Positions 4,958 through 46,418 of a stretch of 64,000 nt of DNA are shown here, piece by piece. The position numbers and the translations under genes were made by a program. The stretch lies in contig NZ_JAAORM010000005.1 in the NCBI RefSeq assembly GCF_017695965.1, positions 372,001 to 436,000 of the forward strand, read 5' to 3'. Within the stretch, counting starts at the first letter, position 1. Every line of letters starts with the position of its first letter. Source of the stretch: Prochlorococcus marinus CUG1416. GTDB taxonomy: Bacteria; Cyanobacteriota; Cyanobacteriia; PCC-6307; Cyanobiaceae. Under the pieces are notes generated by a model. It saw only the letters and a program-made list of their open reading frames with translations, was not told the origin of the DNA and searched no databases.

Positions 4958-7900
4958 ATGACTATCAGCGATAAAATCAGAATTTACGAACTTTCCAGAG
5001 ACTTAAATCTGGAAAATAAAGATATATTGGATGCCGCTCAAAAACTATCAATTACAGTAAAAAGTCATAGCAGTTCTATTAGTGCAGAAGACGCAAAAAA
5101 AATAAAAAATCTTATTAATAAAAAGAATTCTGATAAAAAGAATTCAGATAAAAAAATTCTTTCCATTAATAAACCTTCAATTAAAAAAGATAATTCCAAA
5201 CAGAACAAAGGAGATAAATCTCCTGTTATTTCTTCTGTAAAAGGAATACCTCTCAAGGATAATTCAAACAAAAAGCCATTATTGATAAAACCTCTTAATA
5301 AGCCTGAGAGTTTAAAAATACATTCAAATCAACCTAAAAATCACAATAAACCCAATATTATTAACAGTTCACAATCTCAAGAAAATCTTACGAAACAAAA
5401 TATACAGAGTAAGCACTCACAAAATTCCAACCAAGATAAAAAAACTTTCCGAAATAACACAATCCCACCTATCAAAAGTCCCGCAAAACCGCCTATTCAA
5501 CTAATTGCAAAGCCTAAAAATATAAATAATAATGTCAAATCTAATGAATCTTCCAAGAATATCAACAATTCAGGGGACAAAAGACTAATAACAAACAAAC
5601 CTGATCAAAATTCGAATAAACTTAAAACAAAAAATTTGAATAATAGATTAAACACCCCTGAGCTCGTAGGAGCTCCGATAAGAAGAGACAATACTAGTAA
5701 GCAAAATAATAATAATAAAAATATTTCTTTTAAACAAAATACTCCCAACAGACCTGGCATGCCCGATAGGCCGGGATTAAGAAACAAACCATCAGATCAA
5801 GGCAGACCTGGCTCGTTTAATAGACAAGCCAATCCCAATAGAGCTGCTGCTCCCAACAGACCTGGTATGCCCAATAGGCCGGGATTAAGAAACAAACCAT
5901 CAGATCAAGGGCGATCTGGCTCATTTAATAGACAAGCCAATCCAAATAGAGCTGCTGCTCCCAACAGACCTGGTATGCCCAACAGACCTGGTATGCCCAA
6001 CAGACCTGGTATGCCCAACAGACCTGGTATGCCCAACAGACCTGGCATGCCCAACAGGCCTGGTGCTAAATTTAATGGCCAAAGGTCGTCTGGGATTAGG
6101 AAACCAGTCTCACCTAATGAACTTTTACAACTTCAAAAAACTAATAAACCTGAGAAAGACAACCTTGGTATAAAGAATAAAGAAAAACAAAATATTGAAT
6201 CACCTAAACAAAAGGTAAAAGCTCCTAATAGCCGTCTAAATGCCGCCCCGAGTGCGAAAAAAACACCTCATAGAGCATTTTCAAATAGTTCAAGAAAACC
6301 AGGAAGGAAGGATTGGGACGATAGTGCAAAACTAGAAGCATTAAGAAATAAAAATCCCCAAAAACAAAGGCAGAAAGTTCACATTATCGGTGAGAATGAT
6401 GATTCATTAACATCTGAAACAAGTGGCTACTCTGGCGAGAAAATTTCAATATTATCCGCTAGTTTGGCACGTCCAAAGAAAGAAAAATCTGATGAAACTA
6501 AATCTCAAAAATCTATAAAGCAATTCAAGAAGAAGAAAAAAGAGACCACCAGGCAAAGGCAGAAAAGAAGAGCTATGGAATTAAAGGCTGCTAAAGAAGC
6601 TAAACAAGTAAGACCAGAGATGATAGTAGTTCCCGAAGATAATTTAACAGTTCAAGAATTGGCTGATAAATTAAGTCTTGAAAGTTCTGAAATAATTAAA
6701 TCTCTTTTCTTTAAAGGAATAACTGCAACTGTAACTCAATCTCTTGACTTAGCGACTATCGAAACAGTAGCGGAAGAATTTGGAGTGCCTGTTTTGCAAG
6801 ATGATATCCAAGAAGCCGCTGAGAAAACAGTTGATATGATTGAATCTGATGATATTGATAGTCTAATAAAAAGGCCACCTGTTATTACTGTAATGGGTCA
6901 TGTAGATCATGGCAAAACAAGTCTTTTAGACTCCATCAGAGAATCAAGAGTAGCTTCGGGAGAAGCAGGGGGGATAACTCAACATATAGGAGCTTATCAA
7001 GTTGAATTTGAACATGATTCTAAAAAGAAAAAATTAACTTTTCTTGATACTCCTGGGCATGAAGCGTTTACAGCAATGAGAGCAAGGGGTACAAAAGTTA
7101 CTGATGTGGCTGTTCTTGTAGTTGCAGCAGATGATGGTTGCAGACCTCAAACACTGGAAGCCATTAGTCATGCAAGAGCTGCCAAGGTACCAATTATTGT
7201 TGCAATTAATAAAATTGATAAAGAAGGGGCATCTCCAGAAAGAGTAAAGCAGGAACTTTCAGAAAAGGATTTAATTGCTGAAGATTGGGGAGGAGATACT
7301 GTAATGGTTCCAGTAAGTGCAATCAAAAAGCAAAATATTGATAAATTACTCGAAATGATCCTATTAGTTTCAGAAGTTGAAGATCTACAAGCCAACCCTG
7401 ACAGATTCGCAAAAGGCACTGTTATTGAAGCCCACCTGGATAAAGCCAAAGGTCCTGTAGCAACTTTATTAGTACAAAACGGTACCTTAAAATCTGGGGA
7501 TGTTTTAGCTGCAGGCTCAGTCCTTGGGAAAATTAGAGCAATGGTTGATGAACATGGCAATAGAATTAAAGAAGCAGGACCATCATTCCCAGTGGAAGCA
7601 CTAGGATTCAGTGAAGTGCCAACAGCAGGCGATGAATTCGAAGTTTACTCTGATGAAAAAACTGCTCGAGCTATTGTCGGAGATAGAGCGACAGATGCTA
7701 GAGCCACCAAATTAGCTCAGCAAATGGCCTCTAAAAGAGTTAGTTTATCCTCCCTATCAACTCAAGCAAATGATGGAGAATTAAAAGAGTTGAACTTAAT
7801 TCTTAAGGCGGATGTTCAAGGTAGTGTTGAAGCGATATTGGGATCATTAGAACAATTACCAAAAAATGAAGTTCAAGTCAGAGTTCTACTCTCTGCTCCT

Positions 7901-43226: not shown

Positions 43227-44015
43227 TTGAAAAATATTGGTTTAATTTTATTTGACATAGATGGTGTTATACGCAGCGTTGAGAATAGTTATAGACTTGC
43301 ATTAAAAAAAACAGTTTACAAATTTTCTGGGTGGGAGCCAAGTTATGTAGATATTGATAATGCCAAAAATGAAGGGATTTGGAATAATGACTGGGATTTA
43401 AGTTTAGAGCTTATAAAAAGATGTAAAAGAAAGGAGAATTTAAACCTTGAAATACCCCCAAGAGAAGAAATCGTTAAATGTTTTGAAAAGTTTTACTTTG
43501 GAGGAGATCCAAATAAAGATAGTAAGTATTGGTCTGGATTTATAACGAATGAGGAGTTATTAGTAGATAAAAAGTTTTTTGATTTATTAGAAAGCAATGG
43601 AATAATTTGGGGTTTTGTGAGTGGTGCAGAGTCTGCTTCAGCAAAATTTGTTTTAGAAAAAAGACTTGGACTTAAATCACCACCATTAATCTCTATGGGA
43701 GATGCCCCTGATAAGCCTGATCCAAGAGGTTTTATTAATTTATCAAAAAAGCTTCTTGGAGATAAACTTGGCGCATCTAATATTCCCATTGCATATGTAG
43801 GAGATACTATTGCAGATATAAATACAGTTATAAACGCTAGAAAGGAAATACCATCTCAGAAATTCATAAGTATTGGCATATCTCCCCCTCATTTACATTT
43901 AAAAACCCTATCAAAAGAACGTAATTTATACGAAAAAAATCTAGAAAAAGCTGGTGCTGACATAATTTTAAGTTCTATTAATGACCTTAAAAATATTAAT
44001 CTTGACTTATTGTAA
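43227..44015 (+). CDS. HAD-superfamily phosphatase-like protein
   Basis: The 262-residue product has the HAD motif I as LFDIDGVIR (about 7-15) with nucleophile and acid aspartates, motif II serine in GFVSGAES (about 133-140), and motifs III/IV in KPDPRG and YVGDTIADINTV (about 189-200). A large cap region (about 25-115) contains WEPSYVDIDNAKNEGIWNNDWDLSLELI. It looks like the cyanobacterial HAD subfamily IA group sometimes annotated near histidinol-phosphatase-like proteins; the substrate is unknown. The start is a TTG at 43227. It is the last ordinary gene before the tRNA-Ser island. Confidence 0.82.
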   Translation: MKNIGLILFDIDGVIRSVENSYRLALKKTVYKFSGWEPSYVDIDNAKNEGIWNNDWDLSLELIKRCKRKENLNLEIPPREEIVKCFEKFYFGGDPNKDSKYWSGFITNEELLVDKKFFDLLESNGIIWGFVSGAESASAKFVLEKRLGLKSPPLISMGDAPDKPDPRGFINLSKKLLGDKLGASNIPIAYVGDTIADINTVINARKEIPSQKFISIGISPPHLHLKTLSKERNLYEKNLEKAGADIILSSINDLKNINLDLL

Positions 44016-44046
44016 AAAATAAATTAAGAAATTCTTCTAAATTAAT

Positions 44047-44064
44047 TACGGAGAGGGATGGATT
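44047..44064. repeat. Partial copy of the tRNA-Ser 3' end (outer att-like fragment)
   Basis: TACGGAGAGGGATGGATT matches the intact tRNA-Ser 3' end at 46267-46284 in 17 of 18 bases. A looser match continues for another about 12 bases with small indels. It has the same orientation and marks the left edge of the island. Confidence 0.8.
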
Positions 44065-44172
44065 ATGCGAACACCTCTATGTCTAGGTATTGCAAGGATA
44101 GTCATAATAGAAGATAGAGAAAATAACATTTTTCCGACAACACTTGAACCATTCTTTAAGGAGGCAATCTAA
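44065..44172 (+). CDS. Possible 35-residue peptide gene in the island
   Basis: A short frame from ATG at 44065 to TAA at 44172 begins MRTPLCLGIARIVIIEDREN and ends in FFKEAI. GGAGAGGG lies about seven bases before the ATG, but that sequence is the tRNA-Ser fragment, so the resemblance to a ribosome binding site may be accidental. The stop abuts the stop of the opposing repeat frame. No family is recognised. It could equally be a remnant of a larger gene. Confidence 0.25.
   Translation: MRTPLCLGIARIVIIEDRENNIFPTTLEPFFKEAI
44123..44142 (+). repeat. Left copy of the ATAACATTT..CCGACAACA repeat
   Basis: The 20-base sequence ATAACATTTTTCCGACAACA recurs at 44671-44688 with a two-base shorter T run. 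Both copies lie inside the first island interval, one near each end and in the same orientation. Confidence 0.8.
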
Positions 44173-44484
44173 TTACTTTCCTATTTGTGAACCCACACCT
44201 TTGTTATTGAGTTCCTTTTGATATGCCTCTTTGCTTGAGAGTAAGATCTCGTTAATCGAGAATTTATTAAATAATGACTTTCCTATTTGTGAAACCACAT
44301 CTTTGTTATTGAGTTCCTTTTGATATGCCTCTTTGCTTGAGAGTAAGATCTCGTTAATCGAGAATTTATTAAATAATGACTTTCCTATTTGTGAAACCAC
44401 ATCTTTGTTATTGAGTTCCTTTTGATATGCCTCTTTGCTTGAGAGTAAGATCTCGTTAATCGAGAATTTATTAAATAATGTCAT
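44173..44484 (-). CDS. Repeat-encoded frame of three 34-residue units
   Basis: The frame encodes 103 residues made of three nearly identical units, each containing LFNKFSINEILLSSKEAYQ and KELNNK before ending SQIGK. The first two units are the same apart from the first residue; the last has D-to-G and V-to-G changes. The unit length equals that of TPR repeats, but the TPR consensus residues are absent, so I do not call it TPR. The start ATG has no ribosome binding site. Because the 102-base period is a multiple of three, the open frame may be a by-product of the repeat. It may be a remnant of a longer gene or a non-coding array. Confidence 0.35.
   Translation of the reverse strand: MTLFNKFSINEILLSSKEAYQKELNNKDVVSQIGKSLFNKFSINEILLSSKEAYQKELNNKDVVSQIGKSLFNKFSINEILLSSKEAYQKELNNKGVGSQIGK
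44176..44481. repeat. Tandem array of three 102-bp repeats
   Basis: Units lie at 44176-44277, 44278-44379 and 44380-44481. The second and third differ only at the last base. The first differs from them at two further positions near its left end. A partial match (atttgtgaaa) continues to about 44500. Each unit contains a small hairpin tctcg-ttaat-cgaga. The near-identity indicates recent amplification. Confidence 0.97.
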
Positions 44485-44622
44485 TCTTATTTGTGAAAAT
44501 TGCTTTGTAGATGATCACTTAAGTTCTCAATTCTTTTATAACGCATAACAATTTGCACTTCAACTTTGTGAGATTTTTTTTGAAAATCTAAATATCGAAC
44601 TTTTTGCAATTAAATCTGGACA

Positions 44623-44653
44623 CCACACTACTGCGTCTGTAGTGGGGTTTTTT
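44623..44653 (+). terminator. Orphan rho-independent terminator in the island
   Basis: A 9-bp stem ccacactac / gtagtgggg with one mismatch closes on the loop tgcgtct and is followed by six T residues on the plus strand. No plus-strand gene lies directly upstream, so it may end an unannotated small RNA or be left over from a lost gene. Confidence 0.8.
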
Positions 44654-44667
44654 GTGCAAATTTTTTT

Positions 44668-44688
44668 CCGATAACATTTCCGACAACA
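44668..44688 (+). repeat. Paired CCGAYAACA motifs, 12-bp spacing
   Basis: CCGATAACA at 44668-44676 and CCGACAACA at 44680-44688 repeat with a period of 12 bases. The second half matches the left copy at 44123-44142. The arrangement resembles arm-type integrase binding sites. Confidence 0.75.
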
Positions 44689-44800
44689 AATTTGGGTTTG
44701 GATTAACAATCTAACCTATAAAAAACAAATCATAAGTTGCTCTAATTCTTTTAACTGCAATTATTTTGACCCTTTCTGACGTTATCTGAAACTAATAAAA

Positions 44801-44813
44801 TACGGAGAGGGAG
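44801..44813. repeat. Partial copy of the tRNA-Ser 3' end (inner att-like fragment)
   Basis: TACGGAGAGGGAG is identical to 46267-46279, covering the last 11 bases of tRNA-Ser (with discriminator) plus two bases beyond it. The match stops abruptly. It separates the island into two intervals and lies in the same orientation as the intact gene. Confidence 0.8.
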
Positions 44814-44835
44814 TGAAGGGAAGCCTGTCTGTTTT

Positions 44836-44865
44836 GGACAAAATGGGATGAAATGGGACAAGATA
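44836..44865 (+). repeat. Three 10-bp GGAY direct repeats near the inner att-like fragment
   Basis: GGACAAAATG, GGATGAAATG and GGACAAGATA follow each other with a strict 10-base period, one helical turn. They begin 35 bases from the start of the tRNA fragment. A related pair with the same period is at 46235-46254 near the other end. Confidence 0.85.
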
Positions 44866-44894
44866 GTGCGATTTTTTAGAAATTTAGAGGTTCT

Positions 44895-44913
44895 GTTACC
44901 CCATTCGTTACCC
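44895..44913 (+). repeat. GTTACCC pair, 12-bp spacing (left end)
   Basis: GTTACCCC at 44895 and GTTACCC at 44907 are spaced 12 bases apart. A matching pair stands at 46137-46156 at the opposite end of the same interval and in the same orientation. Confidence 0.8.
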
Positions 44914-44974
44914 TTAATATGACTTCAAAAGTTGATGATTTCAGACTTAAAAGTTATATATCAAAGATGATTAT

Positions 44975-45841
44975 TTATTCAAATGTAGTAAAAGAAGGTA
45001 AAAATGGACCTGTACTAAAATATCCCACTTCACTATCATCCATACCGCTCCACGGTACAACGGCTAACCCTTTGTTTTTGATAGTAAAGCTTACTTCTAA
45101 CCCTTTAGTTGAGGTAGTTATTATTACTGGATTTGTAGGTTTAAAACTACCAAAAACTCGATTAGAAGTTCCACATTGTTCTGGAGTAGTAGCCACAAAA
45201 TTTCCACTAGTTATATGAGAAAGAACAGCTTTCACTGTTCCTACCACATCACCAGAAGTATAAGTATCCACTGAAGCCATTTTCCTATTATTTGCAAGGG
45301 GTTCACATTCTACCCCTTTTTCAAAATCTATTACTTTATTACCCCATTCTGTATATTCTGAAAGAACTTTAGTTGCAGTTCCATCTGAACTAGAATAAAA
45401 GGGTACATCATTTATTAATTGACTACCTTTAAGAACAAAGGTATTACTTAATTTTACATATGCATATGGATAATTTCCAACAGGTGGTCTTGTATCCTTG
45501 CCAATAAGAGCTTGTGGAGCTCCTATTGTTGAGAGGTCAACCAAGGTTCCATTCTCTGCCTCAAATGTTTTAGCACAAGTTGATAAATCAATTTCATAAT
45601 CTGATGTAATATTGTTGCCGCTTCCTGTTGTACCTGATAGAGGGTCATCAGTACATAATCCAAGTTCATAAATTCTGGTTTTATAAATTACTGGCGTTTT
45701 CATACAACTACTTGGAAAAGTATCTGGATTTTCCTGACAAGTATTAGCTTTAACTACAAGGTTCGTATCAAAAAGAAAACCTAAAAGAACTATTGTAGTT
45801 CCAGTTATTATTTTAAAATTATTACTTGTAAAATTTTTCAT
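44975..45841 (-). CDS. Secreted six-cysteine protein of unknown function (island cargo)
   Basis: The 288-residue product starts with a signal peptide: basic MKNFTSNNFK, a hydrophobic core (about 11-27) and a likely cleavage site after VVKA (about residue 32). The mature part has six cysteines (in TCQ, SCM, LCT, TCA, ECE and QCG contexts), an even number that fits disulfide bonds outside the cytoplasm. It is rich in Thr, Ser and beta-strand-type sequence and has no membrane anchor. I do not recognise a family. The YELGLCTDDP segment recalls short repeats in secreted proteins of marine bacteria, but that is a weak impression. It is the only substantial gene in its interval. An opposite-strand frame over its 3' end is judged a shadow. 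Confidence 0.75.
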   Translation of the reverse strand: MKNFTSNNFKIITGTTIVLLGFLFDTNLVVKANTCQENPDTFPSSCMKTPVIYKTRIYELGLCTDDPLSGTTGSGNNITSDYEIDLSTCAKTFEAENGTLVDLSTIGAPQALIGKDTRPPVGNYPYAYVKLSNTFVLKGSQLINDVPFYSSSDGTATKVLSEYTEWGNKVIDFEKGVECEPLANNRKMASVDTYTSGDVVGTVKAVLSHITSGNFVATTPEQCGTSNRVFGSFKPTNPVIITTSTKGLEVSFTIKNKGLAVVPWSGMDDSEVGYFSTGPFLPSFTTFE

Positions 45842-46136
45842 CTAAAACAATTAATAGAATTTTCAAATTAGTAAATGCTTTCTCCTGCATTAAAACAAAA
45901 TCTTTTATTAATTAATCTTTAGTAATTACGAGATTAACCATAATTTTTTTTGATAACTTTAGCAGAAGTAAATTTATATAATTAAAATAAATCTTAAAAT
46001 ATACCTAAAAGGTAATATTAGTTACCACTAAGAAATAAGTCGGGAAAAAGACAATGAACCTAAATAAATAACCTCTACTCTTCTAAATTACTTATTTACA
46101 CTTCTAAAGCAATTTTTTGGTGAAATTACGTATTCC

Positions 46137-46156
46137 GTGACCCTAACCGTTACCCC
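46137..46156 (+). repeat. GTKACCC pair, 12-bp spacing (right end)
   Basis: GTGACCC at 46137 and GTTACCCC at 46149 are 12 bases apart and mirror the pair at 44895-44913, keeping the same orientation and similar flanks (taat after each pair). Confidence 0.75.
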
Positions 46157-46234
46157 TAATTTAATTTTCATATGGGACGATATGAATACCTCTAGGAAAA
46201 AAATCCCCTATTTTTGGGAATTTCATCTGTTTTT

Positions 46235-46254
46235 GGACAATATTGGACTACTTG
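46235..46254 (+). repeat. Two 10-bp GGAC direct repeats beside tRNA-Ser
   Basis: GGACAATATT and GGACTACTTG repeat with a 10-base period and end 12 bases before the repeated tRNA 3' segment. A further GGAC at 46175 is exactly 60 bases upstream, in helical phase. They correspond to the array at 44836-44865. Confidence 0.7.
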
Positions 46255-46268
46255 AACTTCTAATTCTA

Positions 46269-46357
46269 CGGAGAGGGAGGGATTCGAACCCTCGACAAAA
46301 GTTACCTCCTGTAACTCCTTAGCAGGGAGCCGCTTTCAACCACTCAGCCACCTCTCC
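46269..46357 (-). tRNA. tRNA-Ser (anticodon GCT)
   Basis: The 89-base minus-strand sequence folds as a class II tRNA. The acceptor stem is ggagagg / cctctcc with discriminator G. The anticodon stem gctcc / ggagt encloses ctgctaa, giving anticodon GCT for serine AGC/AGT. A long variable arm (tacaggaggtaacttttgt region) follows, then a standard T arm gaggg ttcgaat ccctc. CCA is not encoded. Its 3' end is repeated twice to the left, marking it as an integration site. Confidence 0.95.
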
Positions 46358-46418
46358 AGTTCTTATACATTATCAATTTTTTTGCAAATATTCAAAATTT
46401 TTTATTTTATCGCAATGT

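Follow-up and report, generated by a model that had tools for sequence, protein, structure and literature searches.

The 3′ end of a tRNA-Ser(GCT) gene in Prochlorococcus marinus CUG1416 adjoins two stacked intervals, which are probably separate non-autonomous elements of the kind that tyrosine integrases insert, with the enzyme supplied in trans by a helper. They lie in a window of 64,000 nucleotides, the whole stretch of DNA that we analyzed, and we refer to them as E2 (754 bp, positions 44048–44801, distal to the tRNA and presumably the older) and E1 (1466 bp, positions 44802–46267, bounded by core copies, adjoining the tRNA and presumably the younger). Neither contains an integrase gene. 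There is good support for the separateness of the two elements and for their site-specific integration at tRNA-Ser. That they integrated in trans is the interpretation we prefer, and we infer both this and any present mobility; we saw no excised circle.

Core repeats at the tRNA-Ser(GCT) gene

A scan of the 64-kb window identified three exact copies of TACGGAGAGGGA, the 3′ end of tRNA-Ser(GCT), at positions 44047, 44801 and 46267, all on the plus strand and all confined to 2.3 kb. The sequence was absent from all 100 dinucleotide-preserving shuffles of the window, so that no copy is expected by chance. One core copy coincides with the tRNA 3′ end and the others follow downstream in identical orientation, at spacings of 754 bp (E2) and 1466 bp (E1). 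The preliminary description had noted a tRNA-end segment repeated three times in one orientation at intervals of about 754 and 1466 bases, with a 17/18 match to the tRNA end at 44047, and the sequence bears out each of these observations. The attachment gene itself is intact (46268–46358, minus strand; ARAGORN and Rfam), and its 3′ end is the core copy at 46268–46279. In the Rfam search, the tRNA was the sole match apart from one sub-threshold overlap, and an ad hoc core-variant pattern found no match in the window. The middle copy, ACGGAGAGGGAG (44802–44813, plus strand), marks the junction between E2 and E1; the equivalent position in locus L036 is the tRNA 3′ end itself. The distal copy, ACGGAGAGGGAT (44048–44059, plus strand), forms the outer boundary of E2 and reads ACGGAGAGGGAG in most loci. 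The arrangement thus has the features of elements inserted at tRNA 3′ ends: the tRNA tail recurs as a direct repeat at the outer boundary, and the tRNA is left intact. Outside the insertions, the conserved flank is an open reading frame (ORF) for a HAD-family hydrolase (43227–44015, plus strand; PF00702, 5.5e-08), which adjoins the site in 80 loci that we retrieved. It is followed by a native AT-rich flank (44016–44047, plus strand) that aligns with the ~30-nt spacer separating tRNA-Ser from the HAD gene at empty sites, and also with L036, L010 and L038.

Empty and filled sites in related genomes

We fetched 110 related loci via the flanking HAD and alr genes, and based the counts of empty and filled sites on the 87 that were non-redundant and complete. 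Genomes with a HAD or Alr protein close to that of the window are overrepresented in the sample, and the following fractions are not genus-wide frequencies: the site is empty in 53 of the 87 loci, where the HAD gene, about 30 AT-rich nt and an intact tRNA-Ser follow one another, and filled in 34, with inserts of 185–5385 bp. Relatives with empty sites, with a single interval, with an integrase-bearing element and with other inserts all exist; a sequence shared by all relatives, with no pattern of presence and absence, was not what we found. Most filled loci retain the ~30 native bases outside the outer core copy, and from there to the tRNA their sequence is unrelated. Many unrelated inserts thus occupy the same point in related loci, as in G116, the closest relative by alr (98% amino acid identity), which carries a different insert of 995 bp. 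Among the 34 complete inserts, 32 have no integrase and two encode one. Several inserts measure only ~215 bp, and the earlier remark that elements as small as E1 and E2 appear unusual does not hold at tRNA-Ser. These comparisons show that the tRNA-Ser site is an insertion hotspot in related Prochlorococcus that is repeatedly loaded and unloaded.

The cargo at tRNA-Ser sites includes genes for a carbamoyltransferase, a sulfotransferase, polysaccharide export and a lyase, an O-acyltransferase, a YadA-like protein and a DNA methyltransferase, a list that would point to changes of the cell surface and to defense. One insert (L105:9138–16286) encodes in succession related proteins of 117, 644 and 740 aa with similar N-termini. 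On either side of the site in G116 (L002/L065, one locus), Alr is 98% and HAD 87% identical to the window proteins; this break in identity may reflect a homologous exchange that stopped at the hotspot.

E2 is found by itself against the tRNA in L036/L010, where it measures 651 bp, is ~90–92% identical and shares both ends, and its relatives also adjoin tRNA-Ser in L144 and L145. Because E2 stands alone against the tRNA in other genomes, E1 appears to have entered between E2 and the tRNA, as a separate and probably later insertion. The proposal of two independent side-by-side insertions is therefore upheld by the copies of E2 that occur alone with the same ends. Other stacks were also present: two mini-elements (minis) in L016, inserts of 585 and 177 bp in L028, three units in L208 and an integrase-bearing unit with an integrase-less one on its outer side in L207 and probably also in L206. 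In the integrase-bearing element at L208:6686–11384, the left arms (TTTCCTACCC) are of one family and the right arms (TTGTCCCC) of another, an arrangement that a fusion of two elements could have produced.

Arm-like repeats inside the element ends

When we compared the ends of all tRNA-Ser elements with one another, C-rich repeats stood out in pairs inside each end. By analogy with what is generally known of tyrosine integrases, we take these repeats, with their 12-bp period, to be putative integrase arm sites, which would bind the integrase. A four-site score (two left and two right sites, period 12, maximum 40, n = 200 shuffles) was designed with the repeats already recognized by eye and so confirms the pattern rather than discovering it blindly; the integrase-bearing elements were fetched later and provide an independent check of the layout. 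Most elements score 35–40 of 40, against a shuffle mean near 29 and shuffle maxima of 32–34, and the best scores average 35.9 at period 12 compared to about 30 at periods 8–11 and 13–16. In high-scoring elements, the left pair starts 79–92 bp and the right pair 134–146 bp from the core. The layout is common and not universal, as L060, L062, L076, L078, L082, L096 and L105 score within or near the shuffle range.

E1 has a left arm-like pair, TCTGTTACCCCA TTCGTTACCCTT (44892–44915, plus strand), at an offset of 90 from the core and a right pair, TCCGTGACCCTA ACCGTTACCCCT (46134–46157, plus strand), 134 bp from the core, and scores 36/40, a value that none of 200 shuffles equaled. E2 has a right pair, TTTCCGATAACA TTTCCGACAACA (44665–44688, plus strand), 137 bp from the core and one intact left site, TTTCCGACAACA (44131–44142, plus strand; offset 83 from the core), the second left site being degenerate. 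This single intact left site explains its weaker score (33/40, with 1 of 200 shuffles as good). The arm sequences of the two elements are TTCGTTACCC (E1) and TTCCGACAAC (E2). With its left arm half degenerate and its outer core mutated, E2 may now be immobile.

Cargo of E2 and E1 and its occurrence at other tRNA genes

The E2 cargo is an ORF of 103 aa (44173–44484, minus strand) in which a 34-aa repeat occurs three times, encoded by a 102-bp DNA repeat, and the E1 cargo is an ORF of 288 aa (44975–45841, minus strand) with an N-terminal segment resembling a signal peptide. Both behave as coding sequences: differences are richest at third codon positions (55/49/102 by codon position among nine homologues for E2; 64/50/123 for E1) and gaps come in multiples of three. 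Elsewhere in E2, stretches of the region of a 40-aa ORF (44494–44612) match at 75–80% in many other genomes, where the repeats are absent. The cargo of E2 also occurs in units of ~0.9–1.2 kb at tRNA-Asn (L146/L226, L155) and tRNA-Cys (L148/L227, L151, L153), and the tail of the respective tRNA is repeated at the flank of each unit; the distal tRNA-Asn tail in L226 has four mismatches. E2 has no integrase in any tRNA-Ser copy read, and neither do the copies of its cargo at tRNA-Asn and tRNA-Cys.

Relatives of the E1 protein are encoded in 56 of 266 genomes, and an alignment of 16 members of the family contains an invariant Cys. The E1 protein has no match in Pfam or PHROGs, and a profile search of the PDB with the family returned none either. 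The closest relative (L228; 67% amino acid identity) is 71% identical at the DNA level over 825 bp, with the similarity confined to the coding part, and resides in its own unit of 1370 bp, the outermost of five stacked at tRNA-Pro. That stack (L228:319–6863) is at tRNA-Pro(TGG), and its units, of 436–2188 bp each, are bounded by near-perfect tRNA tails. The genome of the window also carries an E1 paralogue (46% amino acid identity) in a 1389-bp unit between tRNA-Pro tails. The same region (L173:7528–13328, on C4) forms a further array, with tRNA-Pro tails at 7528, 8917, 10330, 10521 and 13328 and a unit of 191 bp; no full tRNA-Pro was found on the L173 stretch read. Just outside the array is a gene for a 403-aa relative of tyrosine integrases.

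Integrases and candidate helpers

Integrase-bearing elements at tRNA-Ser have the same arm layout as those without an integrase, with one arm sequence per integrase type. A 434-aa integrase (L212) goes with TTCGCCACAC arms, which also occur on the integrase-less L033 and L073, and a 426-aa integrase (L209–L211) goes with TCCCAACAAC arms, which recur on the 215-bp insert L110. The L207 integrase is 56% identical to the 426-aa protein and is likewise accompanied by TCCCAACAAC arms; the elements in L206 and L214 have CGTCACAAC and TTTCATCCCC arms, respectively. Arm sequence follows integrase identity in the integrase-bearing tRNA-Ser elements. The 426-aa integrase has a weak match to Arm-DNA-bind_3, under the Pfam cut-off, and the partners of the integrases in L037 and L056 include AlpA-like and resolvase proteins.

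As the preliminary description had proposed, we found no recombinase in either interval: neither E1 nor E2 had similarity to any of 15 tyrosine integrases in tblastn searches, and their main ORFs matched no recombinase family in Pfam or PHROGs. Relatives of the 434-aa integrase are present in only 22 of 265 genomes and are absent from the genome of the window at E ≤ 1e-15. A search of 266 genomes for the arm pairs of E1 and E2, allowing two mismatches, recovered the relatives of E2 and no integrase-bearing element. In viral contigs, no exact match to these arm pairs was found, nor was any relative of the E1 protein or of the 426-aa integrase confirmed. Three proteins of the window's own genome were considered as helpers and rejected. 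A 389-aa integrase is a core gene, present in 15 of 15 near-complete genomes sampled. The 403-aa protein beside the tRNA-Pro tails and a 425-aa protein are related to each other and patchy in distribution, and neither region contains arm pairs like those of E1 or E2.

Proposed mechanism and alternative explanations

Under the mechanism that we favor, each element would bring an attP composed of a 12-bp core identical to the tRNA-Ser(GCT) 3′ end and of arm sites flanking it, ~80–90 bp in from one end and ~135 bp in from the opposite end. An integrase from another element would then recombine this core with the tRNA 3′ end. The incoming core would take the place of the tRNA tail, so that the gene stays intact, and the old tail would be pushed outward. 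E2 would have inserted first, and E1 would have used the restored tRNA site, coming to rest between E2 and the tRNA.

The main rival, which we consider unlikely, is that both intervals derive from larger elements that encoded an integrase, which was deleted in place after their entry, leaving in each case a remnant like a cis-mobilizable element (CIME). Integrase-bearing elements with the same layout do exist at tRNA-Ser, and the helper search recovered none with the arms of E1 or E2. The best evidence for this explanation comes from the minis (214–219 bp), which retain one arm pair (left offset 81–84, right distance 130–138) and whose length equals the two normal distances added together. They look like products of deletion between left and right arm repeats, with all intervening sequence removed, and support some loss of content in place. 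However, the prevalence of integrase-less units among the complete inserts argues against this explanation, as do the consistent lack of an integrase in E2 at tRNA-Ser and around its cargo at tRNA-Asn and tRNA-Cys, and the occurrence of E1-type cargo alone in separate small tRNA-Pro units. Loss in place also leaves unexplained, by itself, how the same cargo came to lie between different cores and arms. The preliminary description had offered satellites that depend on an integrase in trans or scars of larger elements; the satellites fit the arm-site evidence better, although the two are not fully separated.

It is considerably less probable that homologous recombination within the conserved flanks, and not site-specific integration, carries the intervals from strain to strain. 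The contrast between Alr and HAD in G116 is what such an exchange, breaking identity across the site, would produce. Yet flank recombination does not account for tRNA-tail repeats at the exact ends, for arms at fixed distances or for the same cargo at several tRNAs, and it may spread elements already in existence. The shortness of the repeated core (12–13 bp) could suggest that the copies are chance matches, or tandem remnants of a duplicated tRNA that has decayed, and that no mobility is involved. We give this explanation practically no credence: zero copies are expected, many unrelated inserts share one point, and the comparison of filled sites with empty ones, whose native flank is intact, already refutes it.

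Insertion by a helper in trans could extend beyond this locus. Prochlorococcus genomes are streamlined and nevertheless draw on a very large shared gene pool. We tentatively propose, as a possibility somewhat short of even, a helper-dependent, tRNA-anchored cassette system in the genus, in which integrase-less and often one-gene units carry arm “barcodes”, move in trans and exchange cargo. If so, a minority of integrase-bearing elements would insert, stack and empty the units, and cargo would pass from barcode to barcode and among sites at tRNA-Ser, -Pro, -Asn and -Cys. Which helper moves which cassette could then be told from the arm barcode, and some of the gene flow, with rare helpers moving the cassettes in trans, would be predictable from sequence.

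Relation to known mobile elements

Integron gene cassettes are small, often one-gene units that have no recombinase of their own and stack with the newest next to the target. E1 and E2 resemble them as small, recombinase-less, stacked units but differ in having a tRNA core and arm repeats at both ends. CIMEs keep their att sites, have lost their integration genes and are mobilized with or by a related element, a class to which E1 and E2, with att repeats and no integrase, might belong. We saw no packaging or capsid-hijacking gene of the kind found in phage satellites in E1 or E2, and the viral contigs did not contain their exact arm pair. The ssrA islands of Dehalococcoides (CIMEs, accretion) are, as here, tandem units separated by RNA-gene 3′-end repeats, and 15 of them have no integration module (PMC3146451). 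These islands involve a serine recombinase and reductive dehalogenase genes (PMC3146451), whereas units of the E1/E2 type have their own arm repeats and mostly one or a few genes. An additive island at tRNA-Lys in Methylophilaceae is likewise an array of recurring 20-bp tRNA tails, in a different phylum and at a different tRNA, and the portions of the account that concern it do not describe arm sites or empty sites (PMC10872708).

E1 and E2 appear to work like tycheposon-type elements. Tycheposons of Prochlorococcus were reportedly described by Hackl et al. in Cell in 2023. They range from 4 to 200 kb and typically encode a tyrosine recombinase, according to the passages of PMC10872708 that treat them. 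As far as these passages, those in PMC11389934 and general knowledge go, they have in common with the present system the genus, insertion at tRNA 3′ ends, a tyrosine recombinase and variable cargo. E1 and E2 are tRNA-anchored and reside in Prochlorococcus; at 1.5 and 0.75 kb, however, they fall below the 4 kb given in the relevant part of PMC10872708 and have no recombinase, and because of these differences in recombinase and size, as presented there, we do not classify them as tycheposons. By contrast, the integrase-bearing elements in L037/L212, L056/L209–L211, L206, L207 and L214 look like tycheposons.
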